DNA of 42,082 nt from a virus. Both the position numbers and the translations under genes were made by a program. The notes beneath the pieces are model-generated. The model worked only from the letters and a program-made list of their open reading frames with translations, was not told where the DNA came from and did not search any database. Of the stretch, positions 4,758 through 38,350 are shown in pieces (position 1 is the first letter of the stretch; each line of letters starts with the position of its first letter). Location: the IMG/VR virus record IMGVR_UViG_3300048996_000004, positions 1 through 42,082 of that record; one strand, given 5' to 3'.

Positions 4758-6185
4758 TTACGGTACGATAATCACGGTCGAAGAGATCTTGTCAACCAGG
4801 TTCGACCAAGACGTATTCTGCGGATCGGCCAGAACAGCGGTCCACGAAGCGTAGTTCGTGGTCACGTCATTCCAGATGTACGTAGATCCATAGACTGCCG
4901 GAGCAGGCTGGGAAACCTCGCGCGCTGAAACCGTAACTGACCACGAACCCAAAGGCGCATCTAGGGTGCGCTTCAGAGAAAGAGCCGTGAAGTAAAACGT
5001 ATCGATGTCCGCGTTCGGGTCCCCGACCAGAAGGTACATAGGATCTCCGAGCGCGATACGCGCCGCGAGTTCCTTAGCGGCCTGCTTGTTAGCAGCATCG
5101 ATCGTAAACTCGTACGCAGCCGACTTCATGATGTCCGAGACGATGACAGGCGCGGAGCGCCCCACAACCTCGAACACCCCGGTACGTCCGTCCTGGGTAA
5201 TCTCTGTGAATCCGGTAATCTCTACCCGGATGTTCTGGCCCGGCCTGCCCGGGTTCATCAGCCAGTACGGCTTCGTGTTCGCGTTCGGAAGAACGGGCGT
5301 GGTCGAAGTCGTGCCCTGGTCCGTGAATGCACGGACCGGAAGCTGAATGATACGAGCCTTGGATACGTCAGCCACACCACCGGTGTACAGCACCGTGCCC
5401 AGGGGAATGGTTCCCGGACTCGGAGTGGTGTGGTAGTAGAGCTGGGATTCGTCATTGGAACCGGCGGTGTTGTTACCGCCACCAGCCGCAGCCCCCACGT
5501 ACTGAGAGGGCAGCCCTGACACACCGGTGAATACCGAGGCCTTCCACAGGTGTAGGACACCCAGGCCGGTCGGAACCGACGAGGCCGGGTAATCGATGTT
5601 CTGAGCCGATGCGTTAGCCTGGTAAGCCACGTGGACTGGGTCAGCTACGTTCGTGTATGCGCGGATCTGAGCCGAGCAGGAATCCCCGGCCGCTCCGCCC
5701 GCGAAGGTCACAGCCGGAGCTGTAACCCCAGCGGCATAATCACGGTAGAAGATGGCCTGATTGGTCCCACCACCGGCCAGACGAGTCCAACCAGCCGGGG
5801 TTCCGATCGTAGCCGCTGGGTTAGCGTGCGTCACGAACAGAGCCAGCTTGGCGCCGGTAGGAATGGAGCCCACCGGAAGGGCGGGGTTGAGGGTCGCGTT
5901 GTTCGCGGTAGCGAAGGACCCGGTACCGAACACACCCGGGACAGCGGCATCGACAGCCGTTACCCGGTAGTAGTTCGTGGCCCCGAACAGATACCCATCG
6001 TAGTGGTCTACGTGGCCAGCACCACCCGAGACGGGAACAGCGTCCCCGCCCCGGATGGTCGACCACGTGATCTGATCACGAGAGTATTCTACCTTCGCGT
6101 AATCCGCGTCAGTGTTGGCACCGGTAAACGAAATCTGCACTCGGCCGAAATCGTCATTATAGGTTGCCGTGATGGCGAGTGCCAT
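4758..6185 (-). CDS. minor tail protein with Fn3-like and lectin-like regions
   Basis: 475 aa. The first 90 residues look like a fibronectin III or Ig-like domain (VEYSRDQITWSTIRGG.., NYYRVTAVDAAVPG). Residues of about 95-270 are a Gly/Ala-rich beta-sandwich candidate that could bind carbohydrate. The remainder (NIRVEITGFTEI.., PMYLLVGDPNADIDTFYF) resembles tail proteins of the distal-tail type. It follows the tape measure directly with a 1-nt stop/start overlap. A role in host-surface recognition is likely but inferred. Confidence 0.6.
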   Translation of the reverse strand: MALAITATYNDDFGRVQISFTGANTDADYAKVEYSRDQITWSTIRGGDAVPVSGGAGHVDHYDGYLFGATNYYRVTAVDAAVPGVFGTGSFATANNATLNPALPVGSIPTGAKLALFVTHANPAATIGTPAGWTRLAGGGTNQAIFYRDYAAGVTAPAVTFAGGAAGDSCSAQIRAYTNVADPVHVAYQANASAQNIDYPASSVPTGLGVLHLWKASVFTGVSGLPSQYVGAAAGGGNNTAGSNDESQLYYHTTPSPGTIPLGTVLYTGGVADVSKARIIQLPVRAFTDQGTTSTTPVLPNANTKPYWLMNPGRPGQNIRVEITGFTEITQDGRTGVFEVVGRSAPVIVSDIMKSAAYEFTIDAANKQAAKELAARIALGDPMYLLVGDPNADIDTFYFTALSLKRTLDAPLGSWSVTVSAREVSQPAPAVYGSTYIWNDVTTNYASWTAVLADPQNTSWSNLVDKISSTVIIVP

Positions 6186-8740
6186 TACGCTCCCTTCCGT
6201 GCCTGTACAAATCGACGGGTCTGACGGTTGCCCTCTTCGATATGAGCCGTGACGAACTGGGCCATACCATCGGCGTCGCCCTCGACAACAACCGTCACGG
6301 GCTGACCCGTGAACTCAGCGGCTGCGTTGACGGAGTTCGAGACAGCGGCGTTAACCGAGGAGGCAAATGCCGGGGCCGAGGTGACACCAGCAACCGCTGA
6401 CATGGTCTTCTCCATGGCCGACACCGCGAGCCCTCCTCGATCCTCGATACCCTGTGCTAGAGCCTCAGAGATCGAACGACCCGAGTAGAGCGACCATCCC
6501 TTGCCCGAGAACGGGCCTTCCTTTGCAGGCGAGAACGGAAGCAGATTACGGGCAGCGGAGAGCACCCCACCAATAGCGTTGGTTACGGCGCCGATCTTTG
6601 CCTTGATACCGTCTACCAGACCCTGGATGATCGAGGAACCGGCACGGAAGAGCATTCCGCCCAGATCCCCGAGAGCACCCAGGATACGGCCCGGGATGCT
6701 GGAAACAAAGTCAACAGCCGAGTTGAATCCTCGGACGATACCGTCCCTGGCACGATCTACTGCGCCCGAGATAGACGACGTGATCGAAGCCCAGATTGAA
6801 CTGACCCGGCTCAGAAGACCCGAGAACAGGCCCGTAATGGCGCCCACCACCGTGGCGATCACGTTATTGATCGAGGTCATCGAGGCGCCGACAACCGAGG
6901 TTACGACACCGAAGATCTTGATCAGAGGCGTGAGACCGTTAGCGATGAATCCGATCGTGGCCGCAAGGATCTGCGCCATTAGAGAAATGATCGGGGTCAA
7001 GATGTTGATCGTGGACGTCACTACCGGGATCAGCGGGATAAACGCCTGGACCAGGGCAACGACTACCTGAACAAGCGCCGGTAGGATCGGGGCTAGAGCC
7101 TGGAAGATCTGCACCAATGCCTGACCCAGGGCGCCCGCGAGGGGCGCCAGGGCCTGACCCAGCGCCACGAAGGCAGCGGACAGGGGCGGAATCACAGGCT
7201 GCATAGCCTTGAGCACGGCCTGAACCAGCTGAGTGAACGGCGGAATCAGGGCCTGAATCACAGCCAGGATGGGCGTGAGCGCAGCCGCCACAAGCTGAAT
7301 CAGGGGCGGGATCAGAGGGGCTACAGCCGTAAGGATCTGACCGACGATCTGTACCAACTGCGTGATGATCGGGATCAGCGGCGGGATCGCCTGAGCCAGG
7401 GCCCCGGCCAGAACCGTGGCGAGCTGTCCGAGAACCGGACCAAGAGCCTTAGCTACAGCTCCGAGCCCGCTTCCGAGGACGGAGGCAAGCTGGCCTACGG
7501 CCGGGAGAGCCGGAGCCACACCCTTGATCAGTTCCCCGAGTCCCTGAACTAGGGCCGAGACACCTGGTGCTGCGGCCTGGAGGCCCTGTGACAGCAACGG
7601 GAGTACCGTCTGTAGTACCGGGCCCAGAGTCGAGCCTACGGCCTGTCCTACGGTAGCTAGAGCGTTACCGATGCCACCTAGAGCCTTCTGCATTCCCTCG
7701 GACCCGAGCGCCTTGTTGACGGCGGTCAGGGCCGGAAGCAGGGTCCCTGCGAGGCCACCGGCTCCGGAACTGAGTCCGGTGAACACGTTGGCCGCGATAC
7801 CGGCGACCTGCTTAATGATGTCGAAAAGCGTCTTGAACGCCTGGATAGCCACGGTGATCGTGTTACTGATAGCCGTGCCACCAGCCGCCGACGCGGTCCA
7901 AGCATTGAACTTCTGAGCAGCCGCTCCGATACCCGAAGTCAGTTGCTTCAGAACCGGGATACCGATCTCACCGATATTGATCAGGCCGGACAGGAACGGG
8001 GCAATAGCCTTGCCGATGTTCTGCACAACCTGCGAGGTCACAATGAAAATGCTGTTCAACTGCTGGGTCTTCTCACCCGACTTGAGCATTGCCGTTACCT
8101 GAGTAACGACTCCACCCATGGCCGTGGCGATAGACTGAAATCCGGTCTTGAGACCCGGGAGAACCGTCTTCAGGTTCTGCACTGCGGGTGCAAGCGACGA
8201 CTGGAACGAAGACGAAACAGCAGCCTTCAGGTTGTCCAGCGTGGGCGTCAGACCCTCGAAAGCCTTCTTGATGCCATCGGCACCCAGCTTGAGAGTGAGC
8301 ATGGCCCCGGCGCCAGCCAGCAGGGCAGCGGGGATTAGAGCCGCCGCACCAGCGGCGTCAATCAGAGTGGGGCCAAGGGTCGAAGCCGCCGACTGTACTA
8401 CAGCGAATGCGGCTCCGGCCTTGGCGAACGTGAGCATCTTCGAGGTGGCGGACTGGATGCCATTTCCCAGCGAGTTGAACAGGGACTTGACATCCAGTTC
8501 AGCCTTGAGCTTGGCAACCGATACGCGGGCCTTGGTGGTATCCAGGTCCAGGTTTGCGCTCAGGTCCTTGCCGTTAACCGAGGCCTTGAATCGATCGAGG
8601 GTCTCACGGGCCTTGGTCGTGTCCAGCTTGAGCTGAACCGACACCTCAGCCTTGATTGCCTTGAGCCCCGCGTTCAGTTCCTTGCGGAACTCGCTCAGGT
8701 CTGGCTTGATACGGACGGACGCTACACCTACGATTGCCAT
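6185..8740 (-). CDS. tape measure protein
   Basis: 851 aa, the longest protein in the genome. A charged helical N-terminus contains two similar segments (KLDTTKARETLDRFKAS and NLDLDTTKARVSVAKLKAE). A very long Ala/Gly/Pro/Gln/Ile-rich central region follows, with repeating hydrophobic blocks such as PLIPIITQLVQIVGQIL. Position between the chaperone pair and the minor tail genes is diagnostic. At the usual roughly 1.5 angstrom per residue the tail would be about 125 nm long. No lytic transglycosylase or peptidase motif was evident. Confidence 0.95.
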   Translation of the reverse strand: MAIVGVASVRIKPDLSEFRKELNAGLKAIKAEVSVQLKLDTTKARETLDRFKASVNGKDLSANLDLDTTKARVSVAKLKAELDVKSLFNSLGNGIQSATSKMLTFAKAGAAFAVVQSAASTLGPTLIDAAGAAALIPAALLAGAGAMLTLKLGADGIKKAFEGLTPTLDNLKAAVSSSFQSSLAPAVQNLKTVLPGLKTGFQSIATAMGGVVTQVTAMLKSGEKTQQLNSIFIVTSQVVQNIGKAIAPFLSGLINIGEIGIPVLKQLTSGIGAAAQKFNAWTASAAGGTAISNTITVAIQAFKTLFDIIKQVAGIAANVFTGLSSGAGGLAGTLLPALTAVNKALGSEGMQKALGGIGNALATVGQAVGSTLGPVLQTVLPLLSQGLQAAAPGVSALVQGLGELIKGVAPALPAVGQLASVLGSGLGAVAKALGPVLGQLATVLAGALAQAIPPLIPIITQLVQIVGQILTAVAPLIPPLIQLVAAALTPILAVIQALIPPFTQLVQAVLKAMQPVIPPLSAAFVALGQALAPLAGALGQALVQIFQALAPILPALVQVVVALVQAFIPLIPVVTSTINILTPIISLMAQILAATIGFIANGLTPLIKIFGVVTSVVGASMTSINNVIATVVGAITGLFSGLLSRVSSIWASITSSISGAVDRARDGIVRGFNSAVDFVSSIPGRILGALGDLGGMLFRAGSSIIQGLVDGIKAKIGAVTNAIGGVLSAARNLLPFSPAKEGPFSGKGWSLYSGRSISEALAQGIEDRGGLAVSAMEKTMSAVAGVTSAPAFASSVNAAVSNSVNAAAEFTGQPVTVVVEGDADGMAQFVTAHIEEGNRQTRRFVQARKGA

Positions 8741-35083: not shown

Positions 35084-35348
35084 GGAACCCGAAATCGAGA
35101 GTGGCTGGGCCGATCTGGAGAACCAGTTCAAAGAAGCCCTGACACCCCCTGAAGAAGCTGGGCGTCTGGTCATCACTGGCCTGAACCTGGTCACCGGTGA
35201 AGCGGACACGGACGTGTTCACGGTTAGCGGCGTAGCCACCCCGAACGAGGCCAAGACCGTGCTTCTCACGGTGCAGTCCGCCACCGGCGAAGAGTACAAG
35301 ATCACTTTCGAAAACCTGAGCCTGGATAAGGAGAACAAGAATGGCTGA
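35076..35348 (+). CDS. hypothetical protein
   Basis: 90 aa with GGGAGG upstream, acidic. After a helical start (WADLENQFKEALTPPEEAGR) it is beta-rich (TVSGVATPNEAKTVLLTVQS). Overlaps the next gene by 8 nt. Function unknown. Confidence 0.7.
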   Translation: MSEEPEIESGWADLENQFKEALTPPEEAGRLVITGLNLVTGEADTDVFTVSGVATPNEAKTVLLTVQSATGEEYKITFENLSLDKENKNG

Positions 35349-35604
35349 GGATCCGTTCGGCCCGCAGGTGGCGTACAAGGCCCTGGAAATCAGTTTGAGC
35401 CTCAAGCCCTCGGGCTCGTACGACGCTTCTCTGATCAACGTCAAGGGCTCGCCCCGAGACCTGGCCGCGCTTCTCAAGATCGAGGTCGGCCCGGAAGCCT
35501 CGGACTTCGATATCCTCTGGAAGGTCTCGCTCCGGTGGAATGACCTGGCCCGCGCAGTGCAGGCCGATGAGGCCAAGAAGCAGGCTTCGGCGGGAAAAGC
35601 GTAA
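35341..35604 (+). CDS. 87-aa protein with -1 frameshift signal at its 3' end
   Basis: Zero-frame product of 87 aa (ALEISLSLKPSGSYDASLIN.., LRWNDLARAVQADEAKKQ) ending at TAA 35602. Codons GCG GGA AAA GCG TAA contain the slippery heptamer G GGA AAA at 35592-35598, two codons before the stop. A -1 shift would extend the protein by about 72 residues. Family members in other actinophages appear to carry the same N-terminal part, linker and zinc-like C-terminus in one frame; this is from memory. Confidence 0.75.
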   Translation: MAEDPFGPQVAYKALEISLSLKPSGSYDASLINVKGSPRDLAALLKIEVGPEASDFDILWKVSLRWNDLARAVQADEAKKQASAGKA

Positions 35605-35629
35605 GCCCTGCGGGTAAACCCCAAGGGGC
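35592..35629 (+). promoter_or_regulatory. programmed -1 ribosomal frameshift element
   Basis: GGGAAAA at 35592-35598 is in the correct X-XXY-YYZ phase. After a 6-nt spacer (GCGTAA) come GC-rich pairing elements: GCCC..GGGGC (35605-35629), with internal CCC-TGC-GGG and CCCC-AA-GGGG possibilities. This could be a stimulatory hairpin or pseudoknot. Confidence 0.7.
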
Positions 35630-35816
35630 GACAGAACCCCCGGCCTGGTTCCCGCAACCGGCGCCGGAATGCCGACACGGGACCAAGGTGTTCCGGTCGA
35701 AGATGAGCGACAACGGCAACCTGTGGTACGCGTGGGCGTGCCCGGGTCCGTACAACGGGGATTCGTGCACCAAGGCTGAGGGTGCATACGAGTTCCACAA
35801 CCCGCCCACCAACTGA
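35598..35816 (+). CDS. zinc-finger-like C-terminal extension made by -1 frameshift
   Basis: The -1 frame continues in frame from the heptamer to TGA 35814 with no start codon near its beginning. It encodes a Pro-rich linker (EPPAWFPQPAPE) and a domain ECRHGTKVFRSKMSDNGNLW..WACPGP..CTKAEGAY. Its C-x2-H..C..C pattern resembles a small zinc-binding domain common in actinophage replication regions. The fusion would total about 158 aa. An internal ATG at 35704 could give only a fragment. Confidence 0.7.
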   Translation, partial: SVSPAGKPQGATEPPAWFPQPAPECRHGTKVFRSKMSDNGNLWYAWACPGPYNGDSCTKAEGAYEFHNPPTN

Positions 35817-35831
35817 AAGAGGTAGGAACAT

Positions 35832-36314
35832 ATGACTAGCGCGTGGAACGGTGCGCCGGAACCCGAGGGCCCTGAGTTCAACTTCGTTTCCCTGAAGAAC
35901 GAGGGTGACGAGTTCGTGGGCCAGGTCAAGTCCGTGGAGCTGATCACGATCCCCAAGGGCACGCTGCCCCAGCAGCCCACAGACCTCCACGACATCCCTC
36001 GGGTGATGTACACGGGCGTCGATGGCCAGGAGTACGAGTTCAAGTACACCACCGCCGTATTCCGGAACGGCATCCTCCGGCTTCGTCCGGAACCGGGCAC
36101 GTGGGTCTATCACCGCCGGGGTGGCAAGAACCCCAAGGGCTACATCGACGGCGTGGTTCGCGAGGCCCGCCCCGAGGAGACCACCCCGGGCGCGCGTACC
36201 ACGTACTCGGCTCCGGCTGAGAGCGTGGGTGCCCGAGAGGTAGCACCGGCACAGGCCAAGACGTTCAACGCTGAGCCCACGGGCCCGGCTACGGACGACG
36301 CGCCTCCGTTCTGA
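35832..36314 (+). CDS. SSB-like protein with acidic C-terminal tip
   Basis: 160 aa, ATG 35832. The N-terminal 110 residues are beta-rich and OB-like (DEFVGQVKSVELITIPKG.., YTGVDGQEYEFKYTTAVF, TWVYHRRGGKNPKGYI). A disordered Pro/Ala/Thr linker follows, ending DDAPPF, very like the SSB C-terminal peptide that recruits replication partners. It lies just upstream of the polymerase. The call rests on the tip and context. Confidence 0.6.
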   Translation: MTSAWNGAPEPEGPEFNFVSLKNEGDEFVGQVKSVELITIPKGTLPQQPTDLHDIPRVMYTGVDGQEYEFKYTTAVFRNGILRLRPEPGTWVYHRRGGKNPKGYIDGVVREARPEETTPGARTTYSAPAESVGAREVAPAQAKTFNAEPTGPATDDAPPF

Positions 36315-36374: not shown

Positions 36375-36539
36375 GTGACAGTCTCTGAGCTGATTAGGGA
36401 GCTCGTCGGGTACGAGGACATGGGGATGGGTTCCGAGTCCGTCTACGTGGCCGTGAGGGGGCAATACGGCGAAATCCAGAGGACTGAGCCCGGCGACGGA
36501 ATCGAGGATGTTTACCTCTTGGATAAGGACACGCCGTGA
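36375..36539 (+). CDS. 54-aa hypothetical protein
   Basis: GTG 36375 behind GGAGGGG, ending TGA 36539, which overlaps the polymerase GTG by 4 nt. The acidic protein (TVSELIRELVGYEDMGMGSE.., GQYGEIQRTEPGD) is probably coupled to polymerase translation. Function unknown. Confidence 0.6.
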   Translation: MTVSELIRELVGYEDMGMGSESVYVAVRGQYGEIQRTEPGDGIEDVYLLDKDTP

Positions 36540-38350
36540 AGCTGATCGAAGAACGGGTAGCCGGAGAGCCGGTCAAGATCTACGTTCTTGAACGGCCCGA
36601 GGACCTCGAACAGTTCCGGGACTTCATCAGGGCTAACCTTCGCGGCCTCGCGTTCGACACGGAGACCACGGGCCTGGACATCTATTCTGTGGGTTACAAG
36701 CTCCGGCTTGCTCAGTTCGGAACCCGGGACACCGCGTACGTGATCCCCGTGGAACTGTTCGGGGCCTTCGAGGTCATCCGCGCCCTGAAGGCGCTTCGAG
36801 TTCTGATCATCCAGAACGCAGCCTTCGATCTTCAAGTCGTAGAACGCTGCCTAGGCGTGCCGATGGAAGAGCTTTGGCCCAAGACCAAGGACCTGAAGAT
36901 CTATGCGCACCTGGTCGATTCCAGGGGCCGGGAAGAGGGCGGGACCGGTACCAAGCTGGAAGACATTACCCGGGTCTACATCGATGCTGAGATCGCGGAG
37001 CGCGTCAAGGGTTCCATGGTCGAGATCGCCAAGTCCTTGAAGACCACCAAGGCCAAGGTCTGGAAGGTCGTGCCCCTAGACCACCACGGGTACAACCTGT
37101 ACGCGGGCATGGACCCGATCCTCAACGTCCGAGGCATGGAGGCTTTGGAGCCCCGGGTTCCAGTCGTGTCCCGGCCGCTCATCTCGTTCGAGCATGAACT
37201 AGCCGAAGTACTCTCGTATTACGAGCGTGGCGGATTCCTCCTGGACGAGGAGTACACCCTCGGGCTCCGCGATACGCTGATCGAGCGTGAAGAGAAGGCT
37301 CTCACTTCGGTCCAGATGTTCGGTGGCCTGGAGAACGTGAACTCCACCGAGCAGGTCGCGGACGCGTTCGAAGCGCTGGGCGTTCGGATCAAGGGCCGGA
37401 CCCCCAGCGGCAAACGGAAGGTCGACAAGCATTTCCTTGAGGAACAGCTCAAGGCGGGCAACAAGCCCGGCCAGTTGGCCGAATGGATCACCGAGGCTAA
37501 GAAGGCCCGTAAATGGCGCACCACGTGGGTTGAATCCTTCCTGGACGGGATGGACGCGCAAGGCCGTTGTCACGCGTCTATCAACCCTCTGAGGGCGCGT
37601 ACGGCACGCATGTCCATCACGGGTATCCCGGCTCAGACCTTGCCGTCGAAGGACTGGCTTATCCGCCGGTGCTTTATCGCGGACCCTGGGCACCTCATGG
37701 TGTCGGTCGACTACCAGGCGCAGGAGCTTCGAATCCTGGCCGCGCTGTCCGGCGACCCGACTATGATCCAGGCGTTCGTCAATGGCGATGATCTCCACCT
37801 CATGACGGCGCAAGCCGCGTGGGGGTCCTGGGTCACGAAGGAAGACGTCCAGCGTTCGTACGCGAAGACGGTAAACTTCGGACGGGTGTACGGCGGTGGG
37901 GCCAAGACTGTGGCCGAGCAAACCGGACTCTCGTTCCCCGAGGCTAAGCGCGTCGTGGACGCGTTCGATCTGCGGTACCCCGAGATCCAGAAGTACTCCC
38001 GGCGCCTGATGGCTCAGGCCCAGGGTGACGGGTACGTGGTCTCCCCCTCGGGCCGTGTGATGTACGTGGACCGGGACCGCGCGTACGCGGCGATGAACTA
38101 CATGGTCCAGGGGACTGGACGGGATGTCACGGCCCGTGGTATCTTGAGGTTGCACAAGGCGGGGTTCACCCCGTACATGCGACTCCCGATCCACGACGAG
38201 ACCCTGAGCAGCCTCCCGGCTGGACAGGCCGAGTGGGGCGGTGCTAGGATCGCAGAGCTGATGTCAGAGCCGATGGGTCCTGTGTTCATCGGCACAGATG
38301 CAGAAGTGGGCGGCCGATCGTGGGGCTCACTCTACGGAGCGGAGGTATGA
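36536..38350 (+). CDS. polA: family A DNA polymerase
   Basis: 604 aa from GTG 36536. The 3'-5' exonuclease domain has LAFDTETTGLDIYS (Exo I), IIQNAAFDLQVV (Exo II) and YAGMDPILN (Exo III). The polymerase domain has motif A VSVDYQAQELRILAALSGD, motif B RSYAKTVNFGRVYGGG and motif C PIHDETLSS. There is no 5'-3' exonuclease domain. It is the phage replicative polymerase with intact proofreading residues. Confidence 0.96.
   Translation: MKLIEERVAGEPVKIYVLERPEDLEQFRDFIRANLRGLAFDTETTGLDIYSVGYKLRLAQFGTRDTAYVIPVELFGAFEVIRALKALRVLIIQNAAFDLQVVERCLGVPMEELWPKTKDLKIYAHLVDSRGREEGGTGTKLEDITRVYIDAEIAERVKGSMVEIAKSLKTTKAKVWKVVPLDHHGYNLYAGMDPILNVRGMEALEPRVPVVSRPLISFEHELAEVLSYYERGGFLLDEEYTLGLRDTLIEREEKALTSVQMFGGLENVNSTEQVADAFEALGVRIKGRTPSGKRKVDKHFLEEQLKAGNKPGQLAEWITEAKKARKWRTTWVESFLDGMDAQGRCHASINPLRARTARMSITGIPAQTLPSKDWLIRRCFIADPGHLMVSVDYQAQELRILAALSGDPTMIQAFVNGDDLHLMTAQAAWGSWVTKEDVQRSYAKTVNFGRVYGGGAKTVAEQTGLSFPEAKRVVDAFDLRYPEIQKYSRRLMAQAQGDGYVVSPSGRVMYVDRDRAYAAMNYMVQGTGRDVTARGILRLHKAGFTPYMRLPIHDETLSSLPAGQAEWGGARIAELMSEPMGPVFIGTDAEVGGRSWGSLYGAEV

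Follow-up and report, generated by a model that had tools for sequence, protein, structure and literature searches.

The 42,082-nt stretch of DNA from an actinobacterial-type phage analyzed here (positions 1 to 42,082 of IMG/VR record IMGVR_UViG_3300048996_000004, hereafter the window) very probably contains a genuine -1 programmed ribosomal frameshift in a gene similar to gp49 of mycobacteriophage L5, which would give rise to a short and a long form of the encoded protein. The slip site and its phase, the homology of the two gene halves, their conservation, the purifying selection acting on the -1 frame, and a predicted hairpin at a defined spacing can all be read from the sequence. A first-pass annotation had described an in-phase heptamer two codons before a UAA stop, a -1 frame open for about 72 codons into a Cys/His domain, and products of 87 and roughly 158 aa. 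These features were recovered at the positions given below, and the interpretation as a -1 frameshift is supported by the comparisons presented here. The features of the locus and its surroundings are:

35341..35604, + strand: 0-frame open reading frame for the 87-aa short product, which comprises the N-terminal domain of a gp49-like protein and the beginning of the linker and is homologous to the N-terminal half of single-frame relatives
35573..35614, + strand: invariant run of 42 nt, the longest in the ~5.1-kb three-way alignment of the split-gene phages
35592..35598, + strand: slippery heptamer G GGA AAA, in the X XXY YYZ phase of the 0 frame
35598..35816, + strand: -1 frame after the slip, 72 codons (35598-35813) plus UGA (35814-35816)
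within 35598..35816, + strand: linker and C-x-H-G...C...C zinc module, with third-position-biased substitutions
35602..35604, + strand: 0-frame stop UAA, two codons past the heptamer and conserved in all three split-gene phages
35605..35630, + strand: predicted stimulatory hairpin, 26 nt, GC-rich, starting 6 nt past the heptamer
35832..36314, + strand: next gene, encoding a 160-aa protein whose C-terminal tip DDAPPF is conserved in all three split-gene phages
36536..38350, + strand: DNA polymerase I-like gene, 60% identical over its full length to mycobacteriophage pol I, a marker of the replication-arm context

The 0-frame open reading frame ends in GCG GGA AAA GCG TAA, and a -1 shift on the heptamer would change the P-site codon from GGA to GGG and leave AAA in the A-site. 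The strongest related motif in Escherichia coli ends in G (G GGA AAG) rather than A (PMC4066793). Between stops, the -1 frame extends from 35571 to the TGA at 35814-35816; its translation (...GKSVSPAGKPQGATEPPAWFPQPAPECRHGTKVFRSKMSDNGNLWYAWACPGPYNGDSCTKAEGAYEFHNPPTN) reaches CRHG...ACPGPYNGDSC, resulting in a fused 0/-1 product of 158 aa. Markov simulations of the GC-rich window yielded a chance expectation of ~1.1 heptamers with an open -1 frame (extension of at least 55 codons) per 42 kb. As this combination is not rare by chance, the case for the frameshift rests on comparison with other phages. What goes beyond chance is the conservation in two diverged relatives, the homology of both halves to a single family, and the use of the rare AAA codon, which accounts for 2.4% of the Lys codons across the genes sampled from this phage and is invariant at the slip site. 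Automated annotation of this gene would report an orphan of 87 aa and overlook the half with the zinc module.

The fused product matches the Pfam family Phage_gp49 (PF25690), which includes gp49 of mycobacteriophages L5 and D29 and gp43 of Bxb1, with 33.6 bits (curated cut-off 27) over residues 13-143, covering both halves, and it also matches phrog_364 (3.6e-14); the C-terminal part alone reaches 24 bits against PF25690 (cut-off 27). The closest isolated relative is orf6 of Thermobifida phage P318, a single-frame gene located directly before the DNA polymerase, and a search with this protein retrieved 546 phage records, mainly from phages of Mycobacterium, Rhodococcus, and Gordonia, of which all 60 listed are one-piece matches. 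Single-frame homologues are also found in loci L002 and L011-L014. A pol I-guided scan of viral contigs added at least 16 gp49-like genes from other clades (L008, L009, L021, L024-L028, L031-L035, L039, L041, and L042), every one of them in a single frame. Near the linker, none of these other-clade genes carries a slippery heptamer in phase; in-phase heptamers occur in L034 and L035 only, in both cases in the N-terminal part. Single-frame relatives without the heptamer had been named beforehand as a finding that would count against the frameshift. Such relatives do exist, but they are distant, with at most 38% identity to the window in the C-terminal part, and by showing that the two halves constitute one protein they strengthen the frameshift reading.

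Several database entries carry the label 'ribonucleoside reductase class II' for this family, including phrog_364 and several RefSeq records (e.g. NC_002656.1 gp43, L014). In L002, L011, L012, and L013, the ribonucleotide reductase (RNR) is a separate gene upstream, which is why we consider the label mis-transferred; the name was probably carried over to gp49-like proteins from the neighboring RNR gene.

The only two close relatives found, IMGVR 3300012961_000002 and 3300028380_000180, come from other metagenomes. A scan of viral contigs with the SSB-like gene returned the same two relatives and no more, megablast of the region against phage records gave no match, and no members of the split clade were detected in cultured-genome contigs or, by DNA similarity, in plasmids. 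An exact-pattern scan of viral contigs recovered one of the two known carrier contigs, and its negatives were set aside. Conservation in relatives had been proposed as a check, and both phages retain the split, the heptamer GGGAAAA, and the UAA stop identically in place (3/3). Together with the window they form a monophyletic clade with 100/100 support in the gp49 and pol I trees, within which pol I is 86-88% identical. Since every gp49-like gene found in other clades is uninterrupted and the three split-gene phages fall into one clade with the same site, this comparison indicates that the split is derived in the window clade, irrespective of whether an indel or another event started it. The 42-nt invariant run spans the approach to the slip site, the heptamer, the stop, and the 5' hairpin arm. 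The longest run without a synonymous change, counting only codons with a conserved, degenerate amino acid, is 17 codons long and lies over the slip site (shuffle p 0.017), a modest result because it is based on three sequences.

The location of the slip within the protein was examined with an AlphaFold2 model of the single-frame relative L009, which has an N-terminal strand-strand-helix-helix domain (residues 55-105), a disordered linker (residues 106-126), and, modeled with confidence (block pLDDT 83-95), a C-terminal module that contains a beta hairpin (residues 131-180). A structure model of the window part had low confidence (pLDDT 60). In the alignment, the window slip maps to the L009 linker, between the two folded parts, and the short form would thus consist of the N-terminal domain, to which the long form would add the zinc module.

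The alternative that survives best is one about function and is compatible with frameshifting itself: the slip may be real and merely patch an indel in the linker, with the long protein as the only functional product and the short form as a by-product. In its favor, all other family members examined make the full-length form alone. Against it, there is no variation in the entire 42-nt block or in the UAA two codons past the slip, none of the three phages has reverted to one frame, and the slip falls at a domain boundary, observations that fit a role for the short form and stop short of proving one. We regard a functional long form alone as possible, if rather doubtful.

It is very unlikely that a one-base indel simply broke the gene, leaving the C-terminal half as a decaying relic beside a coincidental heptamer. 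A frame-changing event in the linker at the origin of the clade is indeed required by the single-frame state of all more distant relatives, and a heptamer followed by an open -1 frame is expected by chance about once in a sequence of this length. Yet the two relatives share 92-95% protein identity with the window in the C-terminal part encoded by the -1 frame, and the nucleotide changes are concentrated at third codon positions (23/30, 14/21, and 17/22 in the pairwise comparisons; 54/73 in sum). The ligand positions C, H, C, and C are kept in the alignment, and the split and heptamer persist across three diverged phages. By these measures, the -1 frame is a gene under purifying selection, which largely refutes decay.

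The two halves of the gene differ in their divergence. Protein identity between the window and 3300012961 leaps from ~54% (35341-35540), the value for the N-terminal half, to ~95% (35560-35816) near position 35530, a pattern that suggests intragenic recombination in which slip site and zinc half were transferred together as a unit.

Separate translation of the C-terminal module, with ribosomes restarting past the UAA or initiating internally, would yield two independent small proteins, and the overlap of the -1 frame with the end of the 0 frame resembles the arrangement of translationally coupled genes. However, the -1 frame had been described as lacking a good start, and this was borne out: none of the codons ATG, GTG, TTG, CTG, ATT, ATC, and ATA precedes the first Cys/His pair (CRHG) in the window, where the first start-like codon is a GTG at 35688, behind that pair. 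The -1 frame of L020 likewise lacks a start codon ahead of the zinc module, and the one GTG found just ahead of the Cys in L019 is not conserved. Separate translation would also leave untranslated a conserved linker segment (PQGATE.P) that is homologous to gp49 and directly follows the slip. We therefore consider this explanation highly improbable.

The GC-rich pairing that had been noted 6 nt after the heptamer corresponds to a predicted 26-nt hairpin of -14.7 kcal/mol in the window, compared to a local mean of -4.8 for windows of the same size, and of -16.0 and -17.5 kcal/mol in the two relatives, with local means of ~-5 in all three. No more than 0.3% of the 26-nt windows nearby reach this stability, and the hairpin is at or near the most stable position in all three phages. 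Its spacing is exactly 6 nt in each of them, in agreement with the rule that downstream structures start 5-8 or 4-10 nt after the heptamer, and its stability (-0.57 to -0.67 kcal/mol/nt) exceeds the average of 0.45 kcal/mol/nt for stimulators of the IS3 family (PMC4066793). The two relatives have a 3' arm different from that of the window, and a hairpin is still predicted in each phage. RNAalifold, whose result was set aside as evidence, found no covariation in the shallow alignment of three sequences and preferred pairing across the slip site itself. No upstream Shine-Dalgarno-like stimulator stood out above background, as the best anti-Shine-Dalgarno pairing was matched by 11-13% of background 9-mers.

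Slippage of the RNA polymerase instead of the ribosome would be expected to give the same two products, but the in-phase heptamer and the spaced predicted hairpin fit ribosomes. The only homopolymers at the slip site are G3 and A4, which are shorter than the runs known to give efficient slippage of bacterial RNA polymerase, leaving transcriptional slippage with scant probability. Finally, although single-frame homologues exist, the loss or gain of one base in the G/A run by assembly or sequencing error, which had been raised as a check, is refuted by the identical site in three diverged contigs assembled separately from different metagenomes.

For the programmed ribosomal frameshift, we envisage that most ribosomes would read 35341-35604 and stop at the UAA, releasing an 87-aa protein made up of the folded N-terminal domain and a linker stub. 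A fraction would pause at the hairpin 6 nt downstream with tRNA-Gly and tRNA-Lys on GGA AAA and then move back by one base, onto GGG AAA, so that the UAA is no longer in frame and 72 further codons are read. The resulting 158-aa protein, with linker and zinc module, would correspond to the complete gp49 that related phages encode in a single frame. Slippage in the host, its efficiency, the ratio of the products and the importance of this ratio, and a separate role of the short form are what we infer from the features described above.

The genomic context offers a lead to the function of the protein. The placement in a replication arm, as originally assigned, agrees with the pol I gene downstream, whose identity to mycobacteriophage pol I marks the surroundings as an L5-like replication arm; the same neighborhood is found in L011, L013, and L014. 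The 160-aa protein encoded by the intervening gene had no family match above cut-off and is probably a divergent phage SSB, judging from its acidic tip and its position. The gp49-like protein is likely an accessory protein of DNA replication that acts alongside the SSB and pol I of the phage. Its zinc module probably provides an additional contact to nucleic acid (ssDNA), and the slip would therefore set the ratio of the forms with and without the module. Contact with ssDNA is regarded here as a lead, not a result. On this basis we tentatively propose, while stopping short of calling it probable, that one clade has turned a widely conserved accessory protein of replication, encoded in a single frame elsewhere, into a regulated system of two forms, in which the slip in the linker doses an ssDNA-contacting Zf-GRF-like module against the bare N-terminal domain. 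A zinc module next to SSB and pol I would also provide a functional lead for a family labeled 'ribonucleoside reductase class II' without apparent support here.

The proposed contact with ssDNA draws on a weak resemblance of the C-x-H-G...C...C module to the Zf-GRF fingers of NEIL3, ZCCHC4, APE2, and Top3A, which are described as DNA-binding modules (PMC9369019). The motif is shared, and NEIL3 ranks first by profile and by structure. These matches are weak: the top hit of the zinc module in a profile search of the PDB was the mouse NEIL3 Zf-GRF (E 0.033), and structural re-alignment of the L009 model gave Z 3.4 for NEIL3 (45 residues, 2.5 Å) and Z 3.1 for ZCCHC4. In contrast to these fingers, the window module has no match to the Zf-GRF Pfam model, and none was obtained among 16 members at E<=10 with HMMER filters that drop most weak matches. 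A PDB profile search with the full family gave chance-level matches only, and Foldseek found no confident PDB match for either structure model. The ligand set C-x-H...C...C is present in the alignment of the window protein. The Cys ligands of this module are lost, with the rest kept, in L014 (Bxb1, 2495-2986), L039 (2150-2692), and L041 (2460-2981), and the set is therefore not strictly defining for Phage_gp49.

Compared to the other members of Phage_gp49, the window protein shares the N-terminal domain, the Gly/Pro/Gln linker, the C-x-H-G...C...C module, and the replication-arm position near DNA polymerase I. It differs in its much shorter N-terminal acidic/low-complexity region and in the -1 shift that splits its gene in the linker, as the other members examined are single-frame. 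Because the single-frame form occurs in hundreds of phages, versions of this protein with and without programmed splitting are available for comparison, and the split gene allows the roles of the short and long forms to be tested directly.

Sites of this kind had been thought rarely described in actinophages outside tail chaperones, consistent with the 3679 SEA-PHAGES genomes, in which the 2476 annotated joined genes comprise 2397 tail chaperones and 79 hypothetical genes (PMC10885494). Annotated actinophage frameshifts are thus nearly all in tail chaperones, and the one proposed here lies in a gene of DNA metabolism. The literature searched, which included few subscription journals, yielded no account of frameshifting in a gp49-like gene. 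With tail chaperones such as lambda G/GT (GGGAAAG), the window gene shares a near-identical -1 heptamer and a long form that needs the slip, but it is a different gene in a different module and on the other strand. A function of the gp49-like gene as tail assembly chaperone is ruled out by its location, and the window has a separate pair before the tape measure gene:

9461-9117 and 9181-8744, - strand: pair of tail assembly chaperone frames preceding the tape measure gene, the first half matching phrog_330
6185-8740, - strand: tape measure gene

The second frame of this pair is offset by +1 (or -2) around GCC ACG AAA AGT GAA, without a canonical heptamer. Because this offset is not -1 and no canonical heptamer is present, the window phage seems to rely on frameshifts of two distinct kinds.

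In dnaX, which encodes tau and gamma, a -1 slip yields a replication protein in two versions, distinguished by their C-terminal domains, as would be the case for the window gene. The heptamer and the protein are unrelated to those of the window, and frameshifting gives the shorter form in dnaX and the longer form here. Under the tentative two-form proposal, the slip would nevertheless set the dose of a C-terminal module somewhat as it does in dnaX for the clamp loader.
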